Origin: a bacterium
GTDB lineage: Bacteria > Bacteroidota > Bacteroidia > Flavobacteriales_D > Crocinitomicaceae
Length of the DNA stretch: 64,000 bases
Assembly (NCBI GenBank): GCA_024742305.1
Contig: JANSYQ010000001.1
Coordinates: 248,001-312,000, forward strand
Direction of reading: 5' to 3'
The notes under the pieces are model-generated. The model was not told where the DNA came from. It made no database searches and was given only the letters and a program-made list of their open reading frames with translations. Position 1 is the stretch's first letter. Each line of letters opens with the position of its first letter. Position numbers and translations under genes: made by a program. Of this stretch, positions 35,783-55,438 are shown piece after piece.

Positions 35783-35856
35783 GGCTCCGTAGCTCAACTG
35801 TATAGAGCACTGGATTTCGGCTCCAGCGGTTGCAGGTTAGAATCCTGCCGGGGTCA
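35783..35856 (+). tRNA. tRNA-Arg (anticodon TCG), intact copy
   Basis: Folds as a complete cloverleaf: acceptor GGCTCCG with CGGGGTC (two G-U pairs), D stem GCTC/GAGC, anticodon stem CTGGA/TCCAG with loop TTTCGGC (anticodon TCG), T stem GCAGG/CCTGC, discriminator A. CCA is not encoded. It reads CGA/CGN arginine codons. The chromosomal 5' part is preserved here, while its 3' part and terminator come from the integrated element. Confidence 0.93.
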
Positions 35857-35858
35857 CA
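35785..35858. repeat. Left attachment repeat, 74 bp
   Basis: Identical over 74 bp to 44216-44289. It covers the tRNA from position 3 of the acceptor stem to two bases past the discriminator. The flanks differ on both sides of the two copies, so the match is bounded exactly. Confidence 0.93.
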
Positions 35859-41760: not shown

Positions 41761-42840
41761 ATGAAAAAAGTGATTCATCCTGGAATTACATTAAATGAAC
41801 TGTTTAAGGAACGGGACATTTCGCAAAGAGAGTTTGCTTCAATTATTGATATTGCCCACTCACATTTAAGTGATATTCTGAATGGGAAAAAGCCCATTAA
41901 TGCTTCAATAGCAATATCATTACAAGCAGCTGGATTTAAGAATGCAGAATACTGGATGCAAGAACAAATTAAGTTCACAATTCAGGAAATGCTTGGGGAT
42001 GAAAAAGTTGTTGCTAAAACTGATGCTATAAAGGACTGGAACAAGTATATAGATTTAATCCCTGTCAAGTTTTTCAAACAACATAACTTAATTGGCGAAG
42101 ACAACCGAAAGAATGTAGCCCTTATAAATGATTTGTACGGTGTAAATAATTTCGATGAATTAAAGAGCCGAATCAATAAGTTTTCACCGGCAAGGTACAG
42201 AAAGTCATCCGCTTTTAAGGAAGTAAAATCGAATCTACTCGCTTGGGAGGTACTTGCCAAGTCAAAGGCACGTGATGTCAAAGTCATTAATAAATTCAAG
42301 AAGAGTTTTAAAAATGATTTGCTAAGCGAACTTAATGCGATTTTCTACAAGAATATTGACACTCTTTCCAAAACCAAGAAAGTGCTTAGTAAATACGGTG
42401 TGCGCTTTTCTACACTCGATAGACCTCCACAAACTCCAGTCGATGGAAAGACATTTATGGTTGATGGAGAGCCAGCGATTTGCTTGACTTTGAAGTACAA
42501 AAGACTTGATAATTTCGCTTTTACCGTGATGCACGAATTAGGTCATGTATTCCTGCATCTTACCGAGAGTGATAAATATCACGAATTCTATTCTGATTTT
42601 CGTCCATTGGACATGGTTAAAGAAGAATCAGAAGCGGATCGCTTTGCCACCGAAGCGTTAATTCCTCAAGCAGAGTGGGAGCAATTTTACTATAATTATG
42701 ATTTTACTGATGCTTCTATCAAAAGGTTTGCCCGAAAGTTAAAGATTCATCCTGCAATCATACGCGGTCGTGTTTGTCACCACCATAACGAATACTACAG
42801 AAGGAGATCATCGATTAATAAGGATAATACTCGCACTTAA
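41761..42840 (+). CDS. XRE-ImmA/IrrE fusion protein (HTH plus zinc peptidase)
   Basis: A 359-residue protein. The N terminus is a HigA-like helix-turn-helix (IHPGITLNELFKERDISQRE, about 5-65), and the C terminus a DUF955 (ImmA/IrrE) peptidase with HELGH at 258-262 and the EESEADRFA segment for the third ligand. ImmA-type proteases cleave repressors to induce mobile elements; the fused form would combine sensing and regulation. Stop codon abuts the integrase stop (42841), convergent. No HigB-type toxin gene is adjacent. Confidence 0.88.
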   Translation: MKKVIHPGITLNELFKERDISQREFASIIDIAHSHLSDILNGKKPINASIAISLQAAGFKNAEYWMQEQIKFTIQEMLGDEKVVAKTDAIKDWNKYIDLIPVKFFKQHNLIGEDNRKNVALINDLYGVNNFDELKSRINKFSPARYRKSSAFKEVKSNLLAWEVLAKSKARDVKVINKFKKSFKNDLLSELNAIFYKNIDTLSKTKKVLSKYGVRFSTLDRPPQTPVDGKTFMVDGEPAICLTLKYKRLDNFAFTVMHELGHVFLHLTESDKYHEFYSDFRPLDMVKEESEADRFATEALIPQAEWEQFYYNYDFTDASIKRFARKLKIHPAIIRGRVCHHHNEYYRRRSSINKDNTRT

Positions 42841-44064
42841 TTAAGCCACATTCCCCTTAAAGAACTGGTGTCCACTCGTCAACTTAGCATGTTCTTCCTT
42901 ACTCACTCGTATGTACTTCAAGAACACCTTTTCTGTGCGGTGTCCTGTAATTGCCATGATCGCTAGTGTTGGTACTCCTGCTTTGTAAGCATTGGTTGCA
43001 AAACTTCTCCGTGCGGTGTGTGAGCATACAAACTCACATTTGGGTTTAGTGATTTTGATTTTCTTACCTCCGCACGTTCTGGTAACAGTTACCGATTGAG
43101 TAATTCCAACCACCCTACACACCCTTTTGATATACTCGTTGAATTTGGCATTGGAAATTATCCGTGGTGTGCCGTTGTACTTATTGAGTATGTTCTTAGC
43201 GACAGGGTGCAGAGGTATTACAACTTCTTCATCTGTTTTCTCTGTACGTACCTTTAGCATTGTGCCGTCAGCTACAAAATTGTCTTTATTTAGTTTGTGG
43301 TAGTCCTGAGAGCGCACCCCAGTGTAACAAGCCAGTAGAAATATATCTCTTGCATTCTCCAAATGTTTGTTAGGCATAATCGCAGTTCTAATTCTGTGCA
43401 ACTCCACTTCTGCTAGGTAAATCGTATCAGCAGGAACGTCTATTTTCTTGAACGAACGACTTTGGTGTGCCGTGCTGGTGTGCAACCCATCATCCAATGC
43501 TGCATTCATCCACATTTTGATGTTTTTGATGTGCGTACTAATGGAGTTGTTGGCTAGGTTCAGGTCTTGCATACAATGGTTAACAAAACGGTTGTAGAAT
43601 GTCATATCCACATCTTTAAACCGCAACTTCAAACGGTGGCGTTTCTCGTACGATTGGATCTTTCCTAGGCTCACATGATACTGACGGATAGTACCGCTCC
43701 TACGTGTCGGCTTTGAGCGTTCTATGTGCATTTTAGCATACTCATACAGGTAGGTTTCTGCCATTGCCTGTTGGTTCGGATTCGTCAGCGATTCCCGAAG
43801 TTCTGAAATGCCTTCTTTGATGCTTTCCTTAGTGAGATCACCCACCAACTGTAAATGGCGTATCAATTCCATGATCTTTGTACGCATGGTGTTGATTAGA
43901 ATATTGGTTTCGGCATCTGAACCGCCCTGCACACACTGTTTCTTAGGGTTGAACTTTCCACTTTTAACAGAAATGCCGATGGTGTTGCGTACCCGAATAC
44001 CTGATACGGAAATGTCAGCGAATAGGTAATCCATACCCGCTTTTTGTCGGATTGTTACTTTCAT
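42841..44064 (-). CDS. Tyrosine recombinase (integrase) of the tRNA-Arg element
   Basis: Starts at the ATG at 44064 (MKVTIRQKAGMDY), 407 residues. An N-terminal Arm-binding segment and SAM-like domain (about 95-200) precede the catalytic domain: Arg in ACYTGVRSQD, the H-x-x-R in SHTARRSFATNAY, His in GHRTEKVF and the tyrosine nucleophile in LKYIRVSKE. It belongs to the Bacteroidota phage_int_SAM_5 type. It lies about 150 bp from the right attachment repeat, which makes it the likely agent of integration and excision. Confidence 0.94.
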   Translation of the reverse strand: MKVTIRQKAGMDYLFADISVSGIRVRNTIGISVKSGKFNPKKQCVQGGSDAETNILINTMRTKIMELIRHLQLVGDLTKESIKEGISELRESLTNPNQQAMAETYLYEYAKMHIERSKPTRRSGTIRQYHVSLGKIQSYEKRHRLKLRFKDVDMTFYNRFVNHCMQDLNLANNSISTHIKNIKMWMNAALDDGLHTSTAHQSRSFKKIDVPADTIYLAEVELHRIRTAIMPNKHLENARDIFLLACYTGVRSQDYHKLNKDNFVADGTMLKVRTEKTDEEVVIPLHPVAKNILNKYNGTPRIISNAKFNEYIKRVCRVVGITQSVTVTRTCGGKKIKITKPKCEFVCSHTARRSFATNAYKAGVPTLAIMAITGHRTEKVFLKYIRVSKEEHAKLTSGHQFFKGNVA

Positions 44065-44213
44065 ACTACTTGGTTTTATTGGTGAAACAAAGGGTGGCGA
44101 TAGTGCCAATCTATGGGACAGTTCTTGGGACAGCTATCCCGAATATTCAGAACAAAGCGATCTGCTCAGACGTTTGCTCTTTTGATGCCGTATGGTCGGT
44201 TGATGATTATTCT

Positions 44214-44287
44214 TACTCCGTAGCTCAACTGTATAGAGCACTGGATTTCGGCTCCAGCGGTTGCAGGTTAGAATCCTGCCGGGGTCA
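44214..44287 (+). tRNA. tRNA-Arg(TCG)-like right repeat, 5' end altered
   Basis: The same tRNA sequence as the intact copy from acceptor position 3 onward, but positions 1-2 are T and A rather than G and G. This leaves the first acceptor pair mismatched (T-C) and makes the second A-T. It represents the element's carried tRNA fragment with the original chromosomal 3' end. Whether it is transcribed and functional is unclear; it may be a pseudo-tRNA. Confidence 0.7.
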
Positions 44288-44289
44288 CA
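44216..44289. repeat. Right attachment repeat, 74 bp
   Basis: Perfect copy of 35785-35858. The distance from the left repeat is 8,431 bp. Confidence 0.93.
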
Positions 44290-45559: not shown

Positions 45560-47875
45560 TTATTCGGGAACTTTTGAGTAATACAAATTATTAAAACAAG
45601 CTTTGTAATCTGCGAAGGATATTGCAAATTCCGAGCCATCTCCGCCGTGGGGGTTTCTCAGGTGAATTGTTCCATCTGCCTCGTCAACTTTTAAGACACT
45701 GTAGGCATGACCGCACACAATTTCCTCCCCCTTTCCTACCACGACCGTGTATGTGGACTCGGTTCCTTCTTTCAACTTCGCCTTATAATTTGGATCGTTC
45801 ATTGCATTTACTTCGTCTTCATCCTTGCTGGCGACAATACCAACATTTCCATCAGATGTAGCTGTTTTGAAATCGTCCGCTGTTTGCTCCGAAGACGAAG
45901 GTACCTCTTCCGATTCATTGCCTGTAATTACAGCAAGTGCCTCGGCAGGTGAACCAGAGACAATGTTATCATAACCGCCCATTTCTTTGGCATACGCCTT
46001 TTCCAAAAGCATCACCCAAAGTTCGCCATCGCCTTTTTTCGCGTAGCTTTCCATTAAGCCTGTGAACGGGAAGTAAAAATCAATCACAATTTCTTTTGGT
46101 TCTCGAACCAAGGTATCTTGATTCATGATATATAGTGTCACTGTTGCACTTGAATCGCCTGGAGTGTAATCAATCAAGCTCTTGATATGAGCGGGATTCT
46201 GTTTCGCAACAGAAGCAATAGACGAAATCAAATAGCAGTCGCCGAGGGCCCCTTGCACAACATCGTTCATGTCGACTTCATCAGCGTCGTTTCGCCCTTG
46301 CTCGTATATAATGTACTCATCATTTTTCTTGTCGTACAGACCTTTAAATTTGAGTAAATCTTGATTTGGCTTGTCCTCTTTTCCTTCTCTTTTCCCTTTG
46401 TTCATGTAACTACCTCCCTGCTCTGAAAGAGTAGGTTGGTTCATTGCGGCATCTCCTTCTTTTGAGGTCCTTTTCTTTTCGGATTGTTTCAAATACTTCG
46501 GAGAGTCTGCGATGAACTCTTCATAGGTCGGAAGTGCAGAAGAATAGGACTCTATGACATCCTTATAGTAGTCCTTTATGACGGGATCATTTGAAGCTTC
46601 ATAAATGGCTTTGGAGTCGTTAATGATTCGAATGGCTTCGTTCACAATATCCACATCACTTTGCGTAATATCTCTCGATGCAATGCGCTGCTCCAACAAT
46701 GCAATGAATGTGTTCAATTCTCCTGCTTGCTGATTGTATTCTTGTAATTGATTGTGCTCTGTCAATCGTTGAATGAAAGCTTTACCATCACTTTCTATTT
46801 TCGAAACAGTTTCTGCGTTATTGTTTAGTAAACTGACAATCAGATCCACATCTTCTTGATAATAACTGGGAAGTGATTGTTTGAAAGTATCAATTCCGGC
46901 ATACTCGATACGTTTTAGGAACTCTTTGGCCATTTCAACCGTCACACTTTGATCTCCGGTTTTGAAGACATAGTTATAGCGGGTAGTTGCGCCATTCAAG
47001 CTGAACGTCAAACTTGTAGTGCCCTCTTTCTCATAATAACCTTGAATTATCTGAACATAGTACTGTCGAAGTTTGAATAACCTATCCACCAAATCTTGAT
47101 TGGACATCCCTTTTGGGTCGGTAAAATCAAATTCTTCCGCTTTGTCTTGTGGGCTCCTTTGCACCGTGGTACTTACCGGTGCATTCGAACTGTTTTTTCC
47201 TGGACTTCCAGCACTGCCTTGCTGAACGGTATGCGTTAATTCATGAGCCAACAAATGTTTTCCTTTTTGACTTTTGGGGTCATAGTTCCCTTCATTGAAG
47301 TAAATATCATTTCCGTTGGTAAAAGCCTTTGCTCCAATGTCGTTGTTCATTTGAACCGCATTTGCATCCGTATGTATGCGGACATCACTAAATCCGCGTC
47401 CAAATTCATTCTCCATTGAATCTTTCGTTGAATCATCCATTGGAGTTCCCTTTCCTTTTGAGAGGTCAAGATTTTTCTCAAACGATTCTCCTTTTTGTAA
47501 AGGTTCGCCCTCCATAGTTGCTTTCTGAACGCTTTGCGCTGGTTCCGATGCTTGTTGAATATTGGATTTCTTTGCATTACTATTCGGGCTTTTTGCCACT
47601 TGATCCGCCATTTGATCTGCCTCTTTCTCGTATGGATCATTTGACTTACCCATTTTAAGGCGCGCTTGAACGATTGAACTTGGCTGAATTAAATTGGGTC
47701 TACCAAATGAATCTGCTTTTGTTTGAACTTGATTTTCTTCATTATTAATGGGAGATGATTCGCTACCCGTATTCATCTTTTGCTGAACCGTTGGTTTGAT
47801 AAATGGTTCCAAAGTTCCAGTAGAGTTAGTTAAAGGCTTGAGATTACGTGTGGCAGATCGACTCATTCTATTCAT
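45560..47875 (-). CDS. DUF4157-calpain-like protein, candidate injection-system cargo
   Basis: A 771-residue protein with no signal peptide. Residues 1-75 are disordered; a DUF4157 domain spans about 80-220, with DPYEKEADQMADQVA, EFGRGFSDVRIHTD and HELTH at 211-215. A long helical linker (about 240-490) leads to a calpain-type cysteine protease domain with C547 in GALGDCYLISS, H723 in CGHAYSVL and N741 in HLRNPHGG. DUF4157 marks many proteins loaded into extracellular contractile injection systems. A protease toxin is therefore plausible, although no injection-system genes lie in this window. Confidence 0.85.
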   Translation of the reverse strand: MNRMSRSATRNLKPLTNSTGTLEPFIKPTVQQKMNTGSESSPINNEENQVQTKADSFGRPNLIQPSSIVQARLKMGKSNDPYEKEADQMADQVAKSPNSNAKKSNIQQASEPAQSVQKATMEGEPLQKGESFEKNLDLSKGKGTPMDDSTKDSMENEFGRGFSDVRIHTDANAVQMNNDIGAKAFTNGNDIYFNEGNYDPKSQKGKHLLAHELTHTVQQGSAGSPGKNSSNAPVSTTVQRSPQDKAEEFDFTDPKGMSNQDLVDRLFKLRQYYVQIIQGYYEKEGTTSLTFSLNGATTRYNYVFKTGDQSVTVEMAKEFLKRIEYAGIDTFKQSLPSYYQEDVDLIVSLLNNNAETVSKIESDGKAFIQRLTEHNQLQEYNQQAGELNTFIALLEQRIASRDITQSDVDIVNEAIRIINDSKAIYEASNDPVIKDYYKDVIESYSSALPTYEEFIADSPKYLKQSEKKRTSKEGDAAMNQPTLSEQGGSYMNKGKREGKEDKPNQDLLKFKGLYDKKNDEYIIYEQGRNDADEVDMNDVVQGALGDCYLISSIASVAKQNPAHIKSLIDYTPGDSSATVTLYIMNQDTLVREPKEIVIDFYFPFTGLMESYAKKGDGELWVMLLEKAYAKEMGGYDNIVSGSPAEALAVITGNESEEVPSSSEQTADDFKTATSDGNVGIVASKDEDEVNAMNDPNYKAKLKEGTESTYTVVVGKGEEIVCGHAYSVLKVDEADGTIHLRNPHGGDGSEFAISFADYKACFNNLYYSKVPE

Positions 47876-48186: not shown

Positions 48187-51045
48187 CTACCCCATCCCTT
48201 CAATAAACGTTTCTACGAAGTCCATTATTTTTGCTTTGATGCGTTTCGATGCGCGTGCCCGTTCTTTTAACTTTGGGCGTTCGTTCATAAGTTCTATCAA
48301 TTCATCTGCGCGCGGTTCTTTCTTGGTAAAAAGGAAGGTTTGTACAACGTCAACCAGTTTTTGAAAGTCTAGGTTTTCCCTTTCACTGACTTCTTTAAAC
48401 GCTCTCTTCTTCTCCGCGGTCCAGAAGGCATCGAAGGCATCTTCAACGCTGTCTTCTTTTCGAACCATTGGCAAGTTTTCTTCAATGAAGCGTTCAATCA
48501 ATTCTTTCTTGCTGCGTAGTTCGGTGTTCGATTCCATGATCTCTGAAATCGTTTTGCGTTGCTTCTCGCGGTCTTTTGGTTTCGCACCGTACAATTCCGT
48601 CAGTAATTTGATAATGTACTGCACATTGATCTCATCGCGTCGAATGAGTTCGATTTCAAAATCAATATCGTTGAGAATGGAAACCTTTTCTTTTTGCGTG
48701 TCGCCTTTGATCTCTTGGTACAAATCCAAATACTTGCTTTTGTATTTTGCAAAGGTTTGTTCGTCCATGTTCAAATCCTCGGCATCCAATTGCGTGAAGG
48801 TATCCAATACGTTTTTGGTACGCATCAACTCGCGGAACGCCTTCACAAACTGCATTTGATCGTGTTCGGATTCCAAATCATTTACAGCATCGAAGGTGGG
48901 CGCAATTTTCTGCAATTCGGTAACGGCTGCGTTGAATTTGTCCACGTAGTTTTCATACGGCTCAATGATAATTTCCTCAATGGCTTCTTTGTTAGAGAAT
49001 AGCGTTATTGCTTCGTCCGTGGCTTTTTTTAGGTTCCGAAAACAAACAACATTCCCTTGGCTTTTTACCTCATCCAAAATACGGTTGGTGCGTGAGAACG
49101 CCTGTATCAATCCGTGGTACTTCAAATTCTTGTCCACGTAAATTGTATTGAGGTACTTGCTGTCGAATCCTGTTAGGAACATATTCACCACCAGTAATAT
49201 ATCGACGTGTTTATTTTTTACACGTTTCCCAATGTCTTGGTAATAGCCGTAGAAGTCGCCAACCGAGTAGTTCGTATTGAACATATCGTTGTAATCTTCC
49301 ATGTATTCATCCAAGATTTCTTGGCGGTGTTTTGTGGCGTACATGATTTGAGGTTCGGCAGCCATTCCAACGCTTGCTTCTTCTGTATATTCATCCTCAA
49401 AATCATCGGGAATGAATCCGTTGGCGTCCGCGTCTTCATGGTTGGATTGATAGGAAAATATCGTGGCAATTTTCAGTTCGTGTTCTCCCGCTTCTTTTCT
49501 CGCTTTGAATAGTTCGTAGTACTGCACCAAAGTATCTACGTTCGGAACGCAAAAGATTGCCGTAAACTTCTTTGAATGCGTTTTGCGGTCGTGATTATGG
49601 ATAATGTACTCGGTGATTTTCTCCAATCGCTCAGGGGCTTCCATCACCTCAGCTTTGTCGATTTCGTCGACCTTAATATCAACAACGCCTTCTTTCTGCT
49701 TGAAGGTACTGATGTATTCAATAGAGAACTTTAACACGTTTTTATCGCGGATGGCATCCGTTATCACATATTTGTGCAAACAATCTTGGAATAAATCTTT
49801 CGTCGTTCGCTTTCCAAGAGCATTTTTAACGGCATTATCTTTCAGAATTGGAGTTCCTGTAAACCCAAACAGTTGCGCCGATGTGAAGAATGATTTGATT
49901 CGGTTGTGCGTGTCTCCAAACTGGCTACGGTGGCATTCATCAAAGATAAACACGATGCGTTTGTCCTTCGATCCTTCCATTCGGTACAAATACCGATCTT
50001 TCATGATAGCGGTGTTCAACTTCTGAATGGTGGTTACAATGAGCGGTGTATCGTCGCTGAATTGCTTCACAAGCGTGTTCGTGTTATTGGTGGCATCAAT
50101 ACTCCCCTCGCTGAAACTGTTGAACTCGCGAATGGTTTGATAGTCCAAATCTTTTCGATCCACTACGAACACTACTTTATGCACTTTCTCTAGACTGGTG
50201 AGAATTTGCGCTGCTTTGAACGATGTGAGTGTTTTCCCCGATCCTGTGGTGTGCCAAATGTATCCGTTCTTGTTGGTGTTCTTCACGCGCTCAACAATGG
50301 CTTCCGTGGCGTAATATTGATACGGGCGCAACACCATGAGCGTTTTGGCGGTATTGAGCACGACGTACTTCGTAATCATTTTGGAGAGATGGCACGGCTC
50401 TAAAAAGGCATTGGCGAACTCAGGAAGGTTAGTGATAAGTTTGTTCTCCTGATCTGCCCAATAAAACGTTTGTTTGAAGGTTCGCGCCTTCACGGGGTTG
50501 TTTACATAATACTTCGTATTAACGCCGTTGCTGATCACGAACAATTGAATGTAATTGAACAGTCCCCAGCCCGACGAATAGGAAAAACGCTCGTAGCGAT
50601 TCGTTTGCTCGAAGGCTTCTTTGAGTTCCAAGCCGATGCGTTTCAATTCAATTTGCACCAAGGGCAAACCATTCACCAAGATCGTAACATCGTAGCGGGT
50701 TTCGTATTTGCCCGTCATGGTGATTTGGTTGGTAACTTGGTATTGATTTTTGCACCAATGCACTTGGTCGATGAGTTCGATGTATCCCGTTGATCCGTCG
50801 TCTTTTTTGTATTCTACTTTGTCTCGAAGTATTTGCGCTTTTTGGTATATGTTCCCTTTGGAAAGCGCATTCAGTATCTGTTCAAACTCTGATTGTGACA
50901 GCGTCTTTTTGTTGTGCTTTTCTAATTGGTTTTTCAGGTTGGAAACGAGGTCGTCTTCATCGTTGATTTTGATGCGCGAATAACCGAGATCCACCAACTG
51001 CTTCACCAAGTTTTCCTCCAGTATGCTTTCGGGTTGTGTGGTCAT
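48187..51045 (-). CDS. hsdR: Type I restriction enzyme, HsdR subunit
   Basis: A 952-residue protein. The N-terminal nuclease domain has a PD-ExK core in YDVTILVNGLPLVQIELKR (about 115-135). The DEAD-like helicase has Walker A HTTGSGKT (about 263-270), DECHRS as motif II and the later FSRTNRI as motif VI. The C-terminal helical region contacts the methylase. It cleaves DNA after translocation. Its ATG follows the SecB-like gene's stop directly, and it is the last gene of the operon. Confidence 0.96.
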   Translation of the reverse strand: MTTQPESILEENLVKQLVDLGYSRIKINDEDDLVSNLKNQLEKHNKKTLSQSEFEQILNALSKGNIYQKAQILRDKVEYKKDDGSTGYIELIDQVHWCKNQYQVTNQITMTGKYETRYDVTILVNGLPLVQIELKRIGLELKEAFEQTNRYERFSYSSGWGLFNYIQLFVISNGVNTKYYVNNPVKARTFKQTFYWADQENKLITNLPEFANAFLEPCHLSKMITKYVVLNTAKTLMVLRPYQYYATEAIVERVKNTNKNGYIWHTTGSGKTLTSFKAAQILTSLEKVHKVVFVVDRKDLDYQTIREFNSFSEGSIDATNNTNTLVKQFSDDTPLIVTTIQKLNTAIMKDRYLYRMEGSKDKRIVFIFDECHRSQFGDTHNRIKSFFTSAQLFGFTGTPILKDNAVKNALGKRTTKDLFQDCLHKYVITDAIRDKNVLKFSIEYISTFKQKEGVVDIKVDEIDKAEVMEAPERLEKITEYIIHNHDRKTHSKKFTAIFCVPNVDTLVQYYELFKARKEAGEHELKIATIFSYQSNHEDADANGFIPDDFEDEYTEEASVGMAAEPQIMYATKHRQEILDEYMEDYNDMFNTNYSVGDFYGYYQDIGKRVKNKHVDILLVVNMFLTGFDSKYLNTIYVDKNLKYHGLIQAFSRTNRILDEVKSQGNVVCFRNLKKATDEAITLFSNKEAIEEIIIEPYENYVDKFNAAVTELQKIAPTFDAVNDLESEHDQMQFVKAFRELMRTKNVLDTFTQLDAEDLNMDEQTFAKYKSKYLDLYQEIKGDTQKEKVSILNDIDFEIELIRRDEINVQYIIKLLTELYGAKPKDREKQRKTISEIMESNTELRSKKELIERFIEENLPMVRKEDSVEDAFDAFWTAEKKRAFKEVSERENLDFQKLVDVVQTFLFTKKEPRADELIELMNERPKLKERARASKRIKAKIMDFVETFIEGMG

Positions 51046-51486
51046 CTAGTCTTCATCGAGTGAAAGGCGTATGTCTTCTGACACAATATCATTAACGTTC
51101 AATAGCGGCAACATGAACTCGCTAAAAACTGTATTTCGTGTCCTTGCATGAAGAATACCGCGTACCGTCCCAATACTTATTTTGGCAAGGTGCTGCATAA
51201 ATGCCTTGGGAAAGACGATTTCTCTTTCTTCACAAAAACTATCCCAAGTAGCATCCTCTATTATGAAGGAGCAAGCAACTTCAATTTTGATGTGCGGCTT
51301 ATTTTTTTGTTGTAGGGTGATGCCTATTATCAACTGTACTCCCTTTTCAGCAGTGGAGGATCCAATTTCGATTTCCGTATTTATGGAGTAATCATAAGAT
51401 TGCTTCGTGCCAATATTTTCTTCGAACAGGGCAAATTGCTCTGTTTGAATATTTACGAGATTGAATCCAAAGGTTTGCTTTTTCAT
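51046..51486 (-). CDS. SecB-like chaperone of a TAC module
   Basis: A 146-residue protein resembling the SecB fold: a first half of antiparallel beta strands (GVQLIIGITLQQKN, IKIEVACSFIIE) and a helical second half, FPKAFMQHLAKISIGTVRGILHARTRNTVF, with the LPLLNV tail. These features match proteins annotated as SecB-like chaperones next to HigA-type antitoxins, which protect the antitoxin from aggregation and proteolysis. Here it follows a toxin and an antitoxin in the order known for HigBA-SecB. It starts 3 bp after the antitoxin stop and ends flush against hsdR. Confidence 0.8.
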   Translation of the reverse strand: MKKQTFGFNLVNIQTEQFALFEENIGTKQSYDYSINTEIEIGSSTAEKGVQLIIGITLQQKNKPHIKIEVACSFIIEDATWDSFCEEREIVFPKAFMQHLAKISIGTVRGILHARTRNTVFSEFMLPLLNVNDIVSEDIRLSLDED

Positions 51487-51489
51487 GGT

Positions 51490-51960
51490 CTATTCACATT
51501 CCATTTCAAGAAAACCCATGTCACTCGTGTGCATTGTTTTCTCTACTACTTTTTTCATAGGATAGTTATCTAGGTTTTGAAGATGCACAATACCTGTTCC
51601 TGTCATGCGCACGGTTTTATCGTTTCTCCAGGTCACTTTCACGGTTGGTTTGCGTTCGCGCTTCTCATGATACGTTGCCAACAATGGAATATCCAGCACC
51701 TTTTGCAGTTTTACCAAAGTGGACAGCGTGAGGTTTTCTTTACCACTCACGATTTTACTCACCTGCTGTGGGGATACGTCTAGCGCTTCTGCCAACTTGC
51801 GCTGTTTCCAGCCAAGTTCGTCCAATCGAACCAGTACTTTCAAGGCAATGGCTCTTGATTCGCGCAACATTTCGCGGTTCTTTATGCGTTCTCTTGCACG
51901 CTCTAGGGTATCCGTTTTTTCCTTGGATACCAGCGCTTGAAATTTTTCTTTTTGATTCAT
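51490..51960 (-). CDS. XRE-type antitoxin with C-terminal chaperone-addiction-like tail
   Basis: A 156-residue protein. An N-terminal helical part (1-45) leads into a helix-turn-helix (WKQRKLAEALDVSPQQVSKI, about 50-95). The remaining 60 residues end in a hydrophobic, acidic tail (TSDMGFLEMECE), comparable in position to the chaperone-addiction regions of HigA antitoxins. Its start overlaps the toxin stop by 4 bp (ATGA). It probably binds the palindrome before the toxin gene. Confidence 0.82.
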   Translation of the reverse strand: MNQKEKFQALVSKEKTDTLERARERIKNREMLRESRAIALKVLVRLDELGWKQRKLAEALDVSPQQVSKIVSGKENLTLSTLVKLQKVLDIPLLATYHEKRERKPTVKVTWRNDKTVRMTGTGIVHLQNLDNYPMKKVVEKTMHTSDMGFLEMECE

Positions 51961-52472
51961 TCTTGTTCGTTTAAGAATTCATAAAAGGAAAGATCGTCCA
52001 CAATATCATGCGATAGTAAGTAATCGCGTACATGTTTCATTTTATCTATTTCCTTATCGTTTTCCTCGTTTTCTTGTGTTGCTTGACTTCTTTTGATGCA
52101 CCCTCCGGTTATTACGTAGCAATTATCGTACACTTTTACTGCATAGAAGCGTAATTTGTTGCGATCTATCTTGCCTTTGCGTTGTGAGAGGCGCATTTCT
52201 CTGCCGTATTCATTATCGTGAAAGGGGCGAAAAAAGGTGTCTAGCGGATCTGTTTTCAGGGTTAGCTCATCGAGGCGTTCGTCAAATTCATCGGCATCTT
52301 CTGCTCGCTGTTCCGCCCATACATCAGGATTGGGAATGTGGTGGTTCTTCGCATACTCGTATAAATAGCCTACATCTGTCCATAAATTCATCAATCGATT
52401 GTATTCGTTATCGGCTTGATTATCATAGTGAACGGCGTAAAGTTCTTGTTCAAATATACAAACAATTCTCAT
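51957..52472 (-). CDS. RelE/HigB-like toxin
   Basis: A protein of up to 171 residues whose C-terminal half has the RelE-like pattern KLRFYAVKVYDNCYVITGGCIKRSQ followed by a DKMKHVRDYL helix, with basic residues typical of mRNA-cleaving toxins. It is first in the toxin-antitoxin-chaperone order. A good promoter (TTG-N18-TATATTTG) lies inside the first codons, so the real start may be the ATG at 52391 (MNLWTDVG), giving 144 residues. Family confidence is moderate; the ribonuclease role is inferred. Confidence 0.75.
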   Translation of the reverse strand: MRIVCIFEQELYAVHYDNQADNEYNRLMNLWTDVGYLYEYAKNHHIPNPDVWAEQRAEDADEFDERLDELTLKTDPLDTFFRPFHDNEYGREMRLSQRKGKIDRNKLRFYAVKVYDNCYVITGGCIKRSQATQENEENDKEIDKMKHVRDYLLSHDIVDDLSFYEFLNEQE

Positions 52473-52479
52473 TTATCAA
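52451..52479 (-). promoter_or_regulatory. Candidate promoter TTG-N18-TATATTTG of the TAC module
   Basis: The minus strand has TTG (52477-52479), an 18-bp spacer and TATATTTG (52451-52458). The -7 box lies within the open frame of the toxin gene, which argues for a downstream start. Box sequence and spacing are close to the Bacteroidota consensus. Confidence 0.5.
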
Positions 52480-52489
52480 CCTATAGGTT
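52478..52489. promoter_or_regulatory. Perfect 12-bp palindrome (AACCTATAGGTT), candidate operator
   Basis: AACCTATAGGTT overlaps the -33 TTG of the promoter above, 5 bp before the annotated toxin start. Position and symmetry fit autorepression by the antitoxin. Confidence 0.5.
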
Positions 52490-52641
52490 TACTTTTCAGT
52501 GAATTTTATTGACTTAAATGTACCATTTATTCCCTAAACGCGCATTAATTGTGCTTTGGCACGAATGGAAGATGAAAAATTCAACAATTGAAAAATTCAA
52601 AATAAGAACACCATTTTCGATTTTCAATTTTTCATGTTCAA

Positions 52642-53871
52642 TCAAACAAACATTTGTTGCAAAAGCCCTTTTTTCCATTCTTGCGCCTTCTCAATAGCTT
52701 CGGAGGTGGCGTTGATCTTTTCATCTATGGAAGTGAGGAAATTGGCTATTTTGGTTTGTTCGGGTAAGGTTGGAACTTTTAGTTTTCTACCTTCAATACT
52801 ACCTTTTGTAATATGAAACATTGTTCCGCCTTGCGACTGTGATTTAATGCGTTCAATATCATCCATGAAAACGTAGTAAAGAAACAGTTTATTTAATGAT
52901 TTGTTTGGAATAACTTTCCAAATGTGATAATGATAAATTGTTTTTGCTCCTTTCCAAAAATGTGGACCGAAAGTGGCTGACCATGCATACATCAAATCGC
53001 CATTTTCAACGTATTTATCTTCGTCCAATTCTAAATCAGAATAGTACCATTCATTATTGCTGAATAGGTTTCCTACTCGTAGTACTTTGTACTTTCCCGA
53101 ACTTAATAGTTCAACTTGTTTATATGCTTTACCATTAATGAATTTTGCGACATCTGCGAAAGTTTTCGTTTCCCACTCAGGCGGTTCGACAAGCTCACCG
53201 TCCTCGTTTTCTATTTTGAAGCGCAATTCCTGTGAGAATATTTTTTGCATTGCCCCTTTTTTGTAATTCTCCAAAAGGCTTTTTTCTTCGTTGAGGTTGG
53301 CGATTTTGGCATCTACTGCGGTGAGGAAATTGGCTATTTTGGTTTGTTCGGGAAGGGTTGGGAGGAATAGTTTCGTTTCTTTTATAGTCTTTAACGAAAG
53401 GTTTTTGATCGTACTTCCAGTTAACTCTAAATTGAAGTGTTTTTTGACTTTGTGAGTCTGCAAAATGTTAAAGTAGAAATGCTTTGGAAGTTCTTGTTTC
53501 AAAATTAAATATCCCGCACTCTTTCCCAACACGATTTTTTCCGAATTGTAATAAGCCAAATTCCCAATTGTACCGTTGATAGACATCAAAACTGTATTAT
53601 CAGTTAATTCAATTTTGTGCTTTTCATACTCCGACTTATCAACTTTTTTTGGATTAGTGTTTATCACAATCTCACCATCAACAAGATTGTTGCCATTAAC
53701 GAAATAATACTCACCATTCTCATTGTATATCGGTGTTGAATGTATTCCATCACTTATTTTGTCGCAAAGTTCTGATAGAGTCTCTTTCGACCATTCATCG
53801 CTAAAGTTCGAAAACCTCAACTTCGGCACGTTTCGACTAGGCTCAGCGCTAGCTTTCTTCACTCCCCCCAT
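52642..53871 (-). CDS. hsdS: Type I restriction enzyme, specificity subunit HsdS
   Basis: A 409-residue protein with two target-recognition domains separated by conserved regions. The two repeats LPTLPEQTKIANFLTAVDAKI and PTLPEQTKIANFLTSIDEKI are the spacer helices. The N terminus (ASAEPSRNVPKLRF) and the segment before the second domain (EDGELVEPPEWET) are encoded by copies of the dispersed GAGCYTGTCGAA-type repeat. It sets the DNA sequence recognised by the methylase and nuclease. It begins 1 bp after the hsdM stop. Confidence 0.93.
   Translation of the reverse strand: MGGVKKASAEPSRNVPKLRFSNFSDEWSKETLSELCDKISDGIHSTPIYNENGEYYFVNGNNLVDGEIVINTNPKKVDKSEYEKHKIELTDNTVLMSINGTIGNLAYYNSEKIVLGKSAGYLILKQELPKHFYFNILQTHKVKKHFNLELTGSTIKNLSLKTIKETKLFLPTLPEQTKIANFLTAVDAKIANLNEEKSLLENYKKGAMQKIFSQELRFKIENEDGELVEPPEWETKTFADVAKFINGKAYKQVELLSSGKYKVLRVGNLFSNNEWYYSDLELDEDKYVENGDLMYAWSATFGPHFWKGAKTIYHYHIWKVIPNKSLNKLFLYYVFMDDIERIKSQSQGGTMFHITKGSIEGRKLKVPTLPEQTKIANFLTSIDEKINATSEAIEKAQEWKKGLLQQMFV
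53183..53200. repeat. Dispersed repeat inside hsdS, before the second target domain
   Basis: GGTTCGACAAGCTCACCG. It encodes the GELVEPP segment on the minus strand and resembles the intergenic copies at 28856 and 35727. Confidence 0.55.
53825..53848. repeat. Dispersed repeat at the 5' end of hsdS
   Basis: CACGTTTCGACTAGGCTCAG is related to the other copies; on the minus strand it encodes the SAEPSRNVP segment before the first target domain. Confidence 0.5.
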
Positions 53872-53872
53872 C

Positions 53873-55438
53873 TTAAAACGGATTTGAAATGTTCAATTCC
53901 TTGCAAAACTCGGCAATGGTCGCATCAATGCTTTTGTTCTTTTGTGCCACTTCTTGCAATTGCTTCGCTACCGCATCCAAATCAATGGGTTTTTCTTCTT
54001 CGAAGGTGTCCACGTAGCGCGGTATGTTGAGGTTGTATTCGTTTTCTATCACCTCATCCATTGGCGCAACATAACTGAATTTGTCTATGGTTTCCCGTTT
54101 GCGGTAGGTATCTATGATCCGCTTAATGTTGTCGGGAGTCAATTTGTTTTTGTTTCCTTCCTTTTCGCATTCGTTAGAGGCATCAATGAAGAGAATGTCT
54201 TCGCTATGTACACGGCATTTACTCAACACCAAGATACACGTGGGAATGCTTGTTCCGTAGAAGATGTTGGGCGGCAAACCAATCACGGCATCCAAATAAT
54301 TTTGTTTCTCAATAATGTATTTGCGGATCGTGGCTTCGGCTGCACCTCGAAACAATACTCCGTGGGGCAACACGCACGCCATAGTACCGTTTTCAGCCAA
54401 TTGGTGAATCATGTGCTGCACAAAGGCGAAATCCGCTTTGGTTTTCGGGGCTAGTTTCCCGTACTGGCTGAAACGTTCATCGTTATTGTTGAGTGGGTTG
54501 TCTGCCCCTTTCCACTTTGCTGAGAATGGCGGGTTGGCAACAATGGCTTCAAAGCGTTTTTCAGAATGCTGCGGTTCTGCAAGTGTGTCTTCTTGGCGTA
54601 TATCGAAACGGCTGTAATGTACACCGTGCAAAATCATGTTCATTCTGGCGAGGTTGTAAGTAGTACGGTTCAATTCCTGTCCGTAGAAATCGCCTATTTC
54701 GTCCACTTCTTTGGCTACACGTAGCAACAGCGACCCCGAACCGCACGTTGGATCATAAACGGATTTCAACCGCTTCTTTCCTGTGGTAACGATCTTTGCC
54801 AATATTTTCGATACTTCTTGTGGTGTGTAGAATTCGCCCGCTTTTTTACCCGCACCGCTGGCAAATTGCCCGATGAGGTATTCGTACGCATCGCCCAAAA
54901 CATCGCTTTCTAGGTTTTCCAGTTCGAAGTCTATTTTGTCCAAATGGGAAAGTACTTTGGCAATTAGGGTGTTTCTTGCTTCAACGGTTCGCCCTAGTTT
55001 GGTGCTGCCTAAATCCAAATCTTCGAACAGCTTATTGAAGTCGTCCTCGCTTTCCGTCCCCATGGTACTCTGTTCAATGCCATTCAGTACGCTTTCCAAG
55101 TGTTCCAAGATAAAGTTGTCTTCGTTCTCGGTGGCGTTGTTCCCTTTGGCAGCGATTGCACTGAACAATTCGTTGGGATGCAAGAAATACCCCAATGCGC
55201 TTAATGATTCCGTTCGGATCGCGTCCAAATCTTCGGGGTCGGTTACAAGTGCGTAATCTTTTACGTCTTCGGTTTCCAGTAATTTGTTCGCGAAAATGTA
55301 TTGCTTTTCGGATAGGTATTTGAAGAAGATGAACCCTAATATGTAGTCTCGGAACTCGTCGGCATCCATTTTACCGCGTAATTCGTTAGCGATGTTCCAC
55401 AGTTGGGCCTCTAATAATCGTTTTTGTTCTTCACTCAT
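53873..55438 (-). CDS. hsdM: Type I restriction enzyme, methylase HsdM
   Basis: A 521-residue N6-adenine methyltransferase. An N-terminal helical domain (about 1-165) is followed by EFYTPQEVSKILAKIV, the SAM-binding DPTCGSGSLLLRV and the catalytic NPPF motif (ANPPFSAKW). It methylates the recognition site with HsdS. First gene of the operon hsdM-hsdS-toxin-antitoxin-chaperone-hsdR. A TATATTTG box lies 25 bp upstream. Confidence 0.95.
   Translation of the reverse strand: MSEEQKRLLEAQLWNIANELRGKMDADEFRDYILGFIFFKYLSEKQYIFANKLLETEDVKDYALVTDPEDLDAIRTESLSALGYFLHPNELFSAIAAKGNNATENEDNFILEHLESVLNGIEQSTMGTESEDDFNKLFEDLDLGSTKLGRTVEARNTLIAKVLSHLDKIDFELENLESDVLGDAYEYLIGQFASGAGKKAGEFYTPQEVSKILAKIVTTGKKRLKSVYDPTCGSGSLLLRVAKEVDEIGDFYGQELNRTTYNLARMNMILHGVHYSRFDIRQEDTLAEPQHSEKRFEAIVANPPFSAKWKGADNPLNNNDERFSQYGKLAPKTKADFAFVQHMIHQLAENGTMACVLPHGVLFRGAAEATIRKYIIEKQNYLDAVIGLPPNIFYGTSIPTCILVLSKCRVHSEDILFIDASNECEKEGNKNKLTPDNIKRIIDTYRKRETIDKFSYVAPMDEVIENEYNLNIPRYVDTFEEEKPIDLDAVAKQLQEVAQKNKSIDATIAEFCKELNISNPF

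Follow-up and report, generated by a model that had tools for sequence, protein, structure and literature searches.

Toxin-antitoxin-chaperone modules recur between hsdS and hsdR in type I restriction-modification operons of Bacteroidota

Toxin-antitoxin-chaperone (TAC) systems consist of a toxin, an antitoxin and a SecB-like chaperone, and two of them from Escherichia coli, CmdTAC and HigBAC, have been described as anti-phage systems in which the chaperone keeps the antitoxin stable (PMC11618068, PMC11980606). CmdTAC is triggered by a phage capsid protein (PMC11618068) and the trigger of HigBAC has been reported to be a phage major tail protein (PMC11980606). In the Mycobacterium tuberculosis TAC a tail of the antitoxin, the chaperone addiction (ChAD) segment, confers the dependence on the chaperone; in TACs this segment varies in length and sequence, is transferable and is bound by the cognate chaperone (PMC5105189, PMC6377645). 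Defence genes have also been described inside type I restriction-modification (RM) operons. In the RRDM island of enteropathogenic E. coli (EPEC) the toxin-antitoxin (TA) system DarTG2 lies between hsdS and hsdR, a site regarded in proteobacteria as a potential hotspot of recombination and of defence genes (PMC12255303), and in Vibrio cholerae the anti-phage genes tgvAB are embedded in a type I RM operon (PMC11411939). In this report, we describe a TAC module between hsdS and hsdR in a 64,000-nucleotide stretch of a Crocinitomicaceae genome (GenBank assembly GCA_024742305.1, contig JANSYQ010000001.1, positions 248,001 to 312,000), hereafter the window, and we examine where its relatives occur.

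The window's module resembles each of these systems in part. It has the three components of CmdTAC and HigBAC; however, CmdT is an ADP-ribosyltransferase and HigB belongs to the RelE superfamily, whereas the window's toxin family matches no such Pfam model, and the portions of the two reports used here (PMC11618068, PMC11980606) do not mention embedding in an RM operon. The M. tuberculosis TAC has a toxin of another family, and its grafting experiments have a natural counterpart in the window's relatives, which gain and lose the long antitoxin tail and the chaperone together. The toxin of the RRDM island is likewise of another family, regulation is by RptR, upstream of hsdM, and the word "chaperone" is absent from the main text (PMC12255303). 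TgvAB is a type IV restriction enzyme rather than a TA module (PMC11411939). Among the literature matches listed (open-access; bioRxiv not covered) there was no report of a TAC within an RM or BREX operon, and the main text of a 2026 BREX survey contains neither "SecB" nor "chaperone" (PMC12839542). Already known are TAC systems, the presence of defence genes between hsdS and hsdR, and the module family itself as a PADLOC candidate; what is added here is the TAC as cargo that is plugged into restriction and BREX operons of Bacteroidota.

The operon occupies positions 48187-55438 of the window, with all six genes on the minus strand. It begins with hsdM (53873-55438; DNA methyltransferase subunit, 521 aa; PF02384 1.3e-113, TIGR00497 2.5e-143) and hsdS (52642-53871; specificity subunit, 409 aa with two Methylase_S stretches; PF01420 5.2e-51). 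After a spacing of 169 bp follow the toxin-position gene (51957-52472, 171 aa), the helix-turn-helix (HTH) antitoxin gene (51490-51960, 156 aa) and the gene for the SecB-like chaperone (51046-51486, 146 aa), and the operon ends with hsdR (48187-51045; restriction endonuclease/translocase subunit, 952 aa; TIGR00348 1.1e-146, EcoR124_C 1.3e-65, HSDR_N). The identities of hsdM, hsdS and hsdR are secure, and the type I operon is complete. The toxin and antitoxin genes overlap by 4 bp (ATGA, 51957-51960), the chaperone gene follows after 3 bp (51487-51489) and its stop codon (51046-51048) abuts the hsdR ATG (51043-51045). A sequence-only reading of the window had described the order, strands, overlaps and spacings of these six open reading frames (ORFs), all of which are as it gave them, and had taken the middle gene for an XRE antitoxin, in agreement with its HTH_3 match (3.4e-13).

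All three inserted proteins match PADLOC candidate models named PDC-M64. The toxin best matches the M64B model (2.9e-7), and the antitoxin and the chaperone best match M64C (6.8e-14 and 1.7e-13); the models matched fall between PDLC04752 and PDLC04763 and are a candidate listing. We take PDC to stand for "phage defence candidates", found partly through embedding in other systems, and a 2024 preprint by Payne et al. is probably the source of the names. No mention of "PDC-M64" was found in the open-access literature searched. No Pfam family matched the window's toxin or chaperone, and the sole NCBIfam match was at chance level (chaperone, E 0.16). Each of the two is present as one copy in the window's genome, in which neither Pfam SecB nor a second member of the chaperone family was found.

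The module is not confined to the window. Matches to the PADLOC chaperone model occur in 77 of the 395 genomes searched in the phylum, against none in 14 control genomes, and a profile of the window's toxin subfamily (alignment A4, 13 rows) has matches in 23 of 395 genomes of the class. Species-representative contigs encode toxin relatives at at least 568 places (568 of the 595 pattern matches listed), relatives are encoded by four of nine pattern matches in the IMG/VR viral collection, and the window's toxin as query retrieved three plasmid records and one phage record. The chaperone as sole query gave no match in the scan of genome contigs. Sixty fetched surroundings and the window made up 61 loci (numbered L), two of which (L080, L090) lack a chaperone ORF at the spot. 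Forty-three tight triples were picked on spacing alone, although in at least one of them (L072) the gene at the toxin position is unrelated, and alignments A1, A2 and A3 retain 35, 40 and 35 of the triples, respectively. The contexts were read in the best 80 relatives, chosen for likeness to the window's toxin, a choice that inflates the type I share. Repeat loci (L123, L124, L043, L128, L120, and L037, which repeats L036) were excluded from the tail, tree, divergence, covariation, context and cis-element counts, and toxins shorter than 140 aa (shorter than 130 aa in the context count; e.g. L134, L181, L197, L199) from the tail, toxin-tree and cis-element counts. L218 has no antitoxin within reach, and the labels Actinomyces (L139) and Sulfurimonas (L165) of two metagenome-assembled genomes look like binning errors.

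The arrangement hsdS-TAC-hsdR was found at 18 distinct loci, including the window. Among the 17 others, L136 carries an extra 513-aa gene before hsdR, hsdR is incomplete or split in L139 and L150, and L153 and L163 begin inside hsdS. The order toxin, antitoxin, chaperone between hsdS and hsdR, as the sequence-only reading had it for the window, therefore recurs in other species, and with 17 further RM operons carrying the insertion both a chance occurrence, which that reading had allowed for, and a one-off insertion are ruled out. The 69 distinct modules of the subfamily that include a chaperone have RM genes on both sides in 21 cases (the 18 type I loci and three of the type III form mod-TAC-res), on one side in six and on neither side in 42; because RM genes were recognised only by likeness to 14 query proteins above a cut-off, 42 is an upper bound, and it includes L045, where a looser cut-off shows an hsdR-like gene ahead of the TAC. 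Without a chaperone there are 39 modules, three between hsdS and hsdR and 36 with no recognised RM neighbour. In a sister subfamily of 20 modules, two are flanked on both sides (L032 between brxC and pglX; L047 between type III genes) and three on one side (L031 after brxL, L034 after a type I-like restriction endonuclease, L064 after an hsdM-like gene). Embedding between type III mod and res was seen in L157, L186, L187 and L047, and type IIG enzymes adjoin modules in L046 and L059. The module thus recurs in several types of RM and BREX operon.

The hsdS-hsdR gap was also sampled from the side of hsdR. This search gave 55 places in 50 of 395 genomes, from which 34 hsdR loci were inspected (weaker places were left out); four (L272, L275, L277, L278) were unusable, leaving 30 readable gaps. 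Three of these hold a TAC and one a TA, hsdS and hsdR are directly adjacent in four, and 22 hold other cargo. Eleven distinct cargo proteins from ten loci, out of 29 ORFs, were scanned, ten per library. Pfam matched eight of ten (pentapeptide repeats twice, Fic, REase-ARP, Abi_2, PDDEXK_4, DUF4268, GmrSD_N) and PADLOC five of ten (PDC-S24, S11 twice, S26, HEC-05), and seven of the 11 have a defence-type look (Abi_2, Fic, PDDEXK_4, DUF4268, GmrSD_N, REase-ARP, PDC-S11).

A tree of 46 HsdR proteins, including 18 TAC rows, showed how often the content of the gap has changed; the TAC rows come mostly from the toxin search and the remainder from the hsdR search, and L139 and L161 were left out because their hsdR is not full length. 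The TAC label requires ten changes on this tree, at least nine of which are forced by well-supported branches, compared with a mean of 14.4 for shuffled labels (five of 500 shuffles were as low as ten). It is somewhat clustered and far from one origin, and a single ancestral insertion inherited with hsdR is ruled out by the forced changes. The HsdR nearest to that of the window (L163, 77% identical) is TAC-bearing with a toxin only 40% identical. Since toxins evolve faster than hsdR, the toxin difference alone is no proof of replacement; the next relative, L249 (HsdR 75% and HsdM 80% identical), carries a pentapeptide cargo in place of the TAC, and this nested row does show a change of slot content. 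On the toxin tree the type I context requires 12 changes for 23 rows, at least four of them forced (shuffled mean 21.1). The gap is an exchangeable cargo slot, in which the TAC has been gained and lost repeatedly. Beside it, hsdS pieces in opposite or repeated orientation were seen at L255, L259, L260, L261, L268 and L273, which suggests invertible specificity cassettes.

The antitoxin tail, defined as the residues after the HTH core, measures 59 aa in the window (51490-51669 with the stop codon) and is a candidate ChAD segment. Tails were compared in 69 modules with and 33 without a chaperone, with six undecidable at contig ends; L191 was placed in the first group on the strength of a 45-aa chaperone fragment where its contig ends, and L131 was entered three times. 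The median tail is 55 aa (19-140) with a chaperone versus 4 aa (-1 to 43) without one (Mann-Whitney p 6.7e-16, which is no count of independent events, as the rows are related and 20 chaperone-less ones fall in one clade). The same holds inside the hsd slot, where the chaperone-less L154, L161 and L162 have tails of 10, 11 and 16 aa and the 18 modules with a chaperone have tails of 39-60 aa. One RM slot with and without the chaperone, with long tails tracking it, constitutes a natural experiment. The tail is also the fastest-changing part of the module: in 278 pairs at 65-75% HTH identity, median identity is 22% for the tail, 52% for the toxin and 49% for the chaperone (18.6% for shuffled tails). 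By eye, the other two reading frames of the window's odd tail meet early stops, and a frameshift origin was rejected on this visual inspection. The co-presence of tail and chaperone is as expected under chaperone addiction of the antitoxin, and the divergence of the tails agrees with the variability described for ChAD segments (PMC5105189, PMC6377645). Covariation of tail and chaperone is 0.48 in 366 close pairs (toxin 0.03).

The sequence-only reading had called the third protein SecB-like, which is backed by profile comparison and predicted topology. The structure model (mean predicted local distance difference test, pLDDT, of 92.9) has strands at residues 8-20, 34-44, 49-60 and 63-76 followed by a long helix at 94-116, and hhalign of the chaperone family against four SecB-family proteins, E. 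coli SecB included, gave a collinear alignment of 121 columns (probability 76%, E 2.2e-5). The protein resembles SecB in profile and predicted topology. Pfam SecB did not match the window's chaperone and matched one of 40 family members at E 0.053. In one genus (g60) a relative of the chaperone occurs without toxin or antitoxin in a recurring neighbourhood (L052, L054, L061, L065, L066, L084-L087) and is possibly a housekeeping SecB substitute.

For the first gene, the sequence-only reading had proposed a RelE/HigB-like toxin. Its place as the putative toxin gene is supported by L038 and L082, where a member of the same chaperone family lies third behind a HigB_toxin protein (PF09907, 1.9e-19 and 1.5e-20) and a middle gene that the window's antitoxin as query does not recognise. 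The family label is weakly supported (see the HigB and Gp49 comparisons below). F81, R108, G124 and K127 are conserved across the two subfamilies of alignment A1 (35 proteins), and A4 adds, among others, T122, G123 and I126 around these positions. The model (pLDDT 91.3) is mixed alpha/beta; from the N- to the C-terminus it runs through two strands, three helices, four further strands and two helices, an order compatible by eye with a RelE-type fold. The protein is a putative toxin, likely an RNase.

Taken together, we consider it fairly probable that the TAC is exchangeable cargo of the hsdS-hsdR gap that serves as an anti-phage backup layer behind restriction. In the resting state the antitoxin would be held through its C-terminal tail on the dedicated SecB-like chaperone, would neutralise the toxin and would repress its own operator. 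In an infection that escapes restriction, a phage structural protein made in excess would most likely draw the chaperone off; the tail would be exposed, the antitoxin lost, and the toxin, probably an RNase or translation inhibitor, would stop growth. Embedding in the RM operon would thereby provide a second defence layer, and the many paired RM and TAC loci lend themselves to probing such a backup.

Several observations weigh against this proposal. No RM or BREX neighbour was recognised with the 14 query proteins for 42 of the 69 TAC modules, and only three of the 30 readable slots sampled via hsdR contain a TAC. The toxin family has no named-toxin match in Pfam, NCBIfam, the sequences of solved structures or profile comparison; hhalign gave a probability of 0.1% against HigB and, albeit in the expected register, 6.4% (E 0.0058) against a Gp49 profile of 22 rows, one of which (L286) is plainly misread. 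The SecB profile probability of 76% is below usual certainty, and a search of the sequences of solved structures with the chaperone matched no SecB. The tail rule has exceptions, L068 (19 aa) and L078 (27 aa) with a chaperone and L133 (43 aa) and L192 (34 aa) without one. Over all 2145 pairs of 66 modules the covariation of tail and chaperone is 0.03 (p 0.19), and coevolution of the two is for this reason not claimed.

The same context counts bear on a reading in which the slot is an insert-tolerant recombination hotspot and the module hitch-hikes in it with no functional link to restriction, which would still leave room for the TAC to act against phages on its own. Exchangeable cargo, the 42 modules without a recognised RM neighbour and the description of the proteobacterial hsdS-hsdR site as a potential hotspot (PMC12255303) speak for such hitch-hiking. 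However, seven of the 11 scanned cargo proteins look like defence proteins, and type III RM and BREX operons contain the module as well, which fits selection for co-occurrence with defence, and we regard hitch-hiking as possible but doubtful.

TA systems can stabilise linked genes by addiction, and the TAC could in this way maintain the RM operon by arresting cells that lose it. The sequence-only reading had suggested this, as killing or arrest of cells when restriction fails or is lost, which is not supported as it was worded. Such a role would not exclude that of a backup layer, and it agrees with the position of the module inside the operon and with the window's chaperone stop codon abutting hsdR. 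Against it, hsdR lineages often lose or swap the TAC and 26 of the 30 sampled slots hold neither TAC nor TA, so the operon is not locked in place by the module; addiction requires neither a dedicated chaperone nor a fast-changing tail, some modules have no RM neighbour that was recognised while others belong to type III, IIG or BREX operons, and the published trigger of related TACs is a phage structural protein (PMC11618068, PMC11980606). We consider stabilisation of the operon quite unlikely.

The start of the toxin gene carries a promoter-like element that bears on how TAC and RM expression connect. Immediately upstream lies a candidate operator, GTAAACCTATAGGTTGAT (52475-52492, minus strand), an 18-bp near-palindrome that has the perfectly palindromic core AACCTATAGGTT and stops 2 bases short of the toxin ATG. 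A candidate sigma-A -7 box, TATATTTG (52451-52458, minus strand), falls within toxin codons 5-8, 18 nt 3' of the operator TTG (52477-52479). The strict operator core is present in the 40 bases upstream of 19 of 21 modules in the slot, 28 of 51 other TACs and 16 of 36 TAs, with at most 0.1 per group in base shuffles; if the test is loosened to accept any 12-mer that is self-complementary at 10 of its 12 positions, the counts are 19, 36 and 20 versus 6.7, 18.1 and 11.4 in shuffled sequence. Overall the operator-like element was found in 81 of 108 modules and is a perfect 18-mer in L190. The distance from its GTT to the first ATG or GTG is 6-7 nt in 72 of the 81 and 5 nt in the window. L131 (G571) has three toxin copies in tandem and no chaperone; an HTH antitoxin ORF lies within reach of each copy, and a near-identical operator sequence precedes each.

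In 18 of the 21 slot modules the last base of the -7 box is nucleotide 22 of the toxin ORF. The Ile codon within it is ATA in 49 of 68 modules versus 423 of 1090 toxin Ile codons elsewhere (p 8.6e-8, on related rows); of the same 68 modules, 65 have a G directly after the Phe codon of the box. This bias and the nearly invariant G suggest that the DNA, beyond the peptide, is conserved. The Bacteroidota promoter consensus is given as TAnnTTTG with an upstream TTTG or TTG, and the same report notes that the -33 motif was not seen in RNA-seq of Flavobacterium johnsoniae (PMC7366714). The operator's 3' TTG followed by TATATTTG fits this form. In Flavobacterium psychrophilum the box spans -12 to -5 (PMC9723704), which by analogy would place a start site near 52446, within the toxin ORF. 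The arrangement suggests an internal promoter whose transcript would include the antitoxin, the chaperone and, in this slot, hsdR, without a full toxin ORF. Seven modules outside the slot have the end of the box 20-43 nt upstream of the ORF start, and in L202, L207, L210 and L213 the box can be seen ahead of the ATG; there the toxin would be transcribed normally. An extra upstream toxin promoter, sought between -260 and -45, was seen in none of 21 slot loci and three of 87 others, near the shuffled level.

As a competing possibility, the operator contains an SM5-like box (TAAGTTGA or TAGGTTGA), usually 4 nt before the ATG and 3 nt before it in the window, from which the toxin mRNA may start without a leader. 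Published SM5 reads TAnnTTGY; the operator has A at the last place. We also put forward, as an unlikely arrangement, that the toxin start is built over an antitoxin-repressed promoter, such that full-length toxin would come only from hsdM-hsdS read-through and the antitoxin, chaperone and HsdR from the internal promoter. If so, the module would compare modification-side with nuclease-side transcription, and removal of the chaperone or silencing of the internal promoter during hsdMS transcription would release the toxin. The operator-like element and -7 box over the toxin start are put forward as new; no literature search was aimed at the element.

The sequence-only reading had held that the expression of toxin, antitoxin, chaperone and nuclease is tied together, which is not supported as worded. 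Among the 19 loci with hsdR downstream of the TAC, none has more than 5 bp between toxin and antitoxin or between antitoxin and chaperone, but only seven have a chaperone-hsdR gap of 10 bp or less, and the conserved promoter-like element at the toxin start suggests that antitoxin, chaperone and hsdR are transcribed separately. A purely regulatory role, in which the HTH protein represses the internal promoter to set hsdR expression and the "toxin" is a co-regulator, would suit the palindrome and -7 box ahead of antitoxin, chaperone and hsdR, yet it is improbable given that the element also occurs in modules with no hsdR downstream and that in L038 and L082, which have the same chaperone family, the first gene encodes a HigB_toxin protein.

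Other genes lie near the operon. Just downstream of hsdR (45560-47875, minus strand) is a gene for a 771-aa candidate contractile-injection cargo, which combines an extracellular contractile injection system (eCIS) core domain (PF13699, 1.3e-30) with a calpain-type protease domain (PF00648, 3.1e-25). Two tRNA-Arg(tcg) calls on the plus strand (35783-35857 and 44214-44288), identical except for the first two bases, stand about 8.4 kb apart, and a tyrosine integrase gene (42841-44109) adjoins one of them. The 8.4 kb bracketed by the tRNAs has the look of a tRNA-targeted island whose attachment site was duplicated; it stops 3.9 kb short of the 3' end of hsdR. Beside the integrase, a gene on the plus strand (41761-42840) encodes a protein with an HTH and an IrrE-like metallopeptidase (Peptidase_M78), a make-up found in mobile-element regulators.

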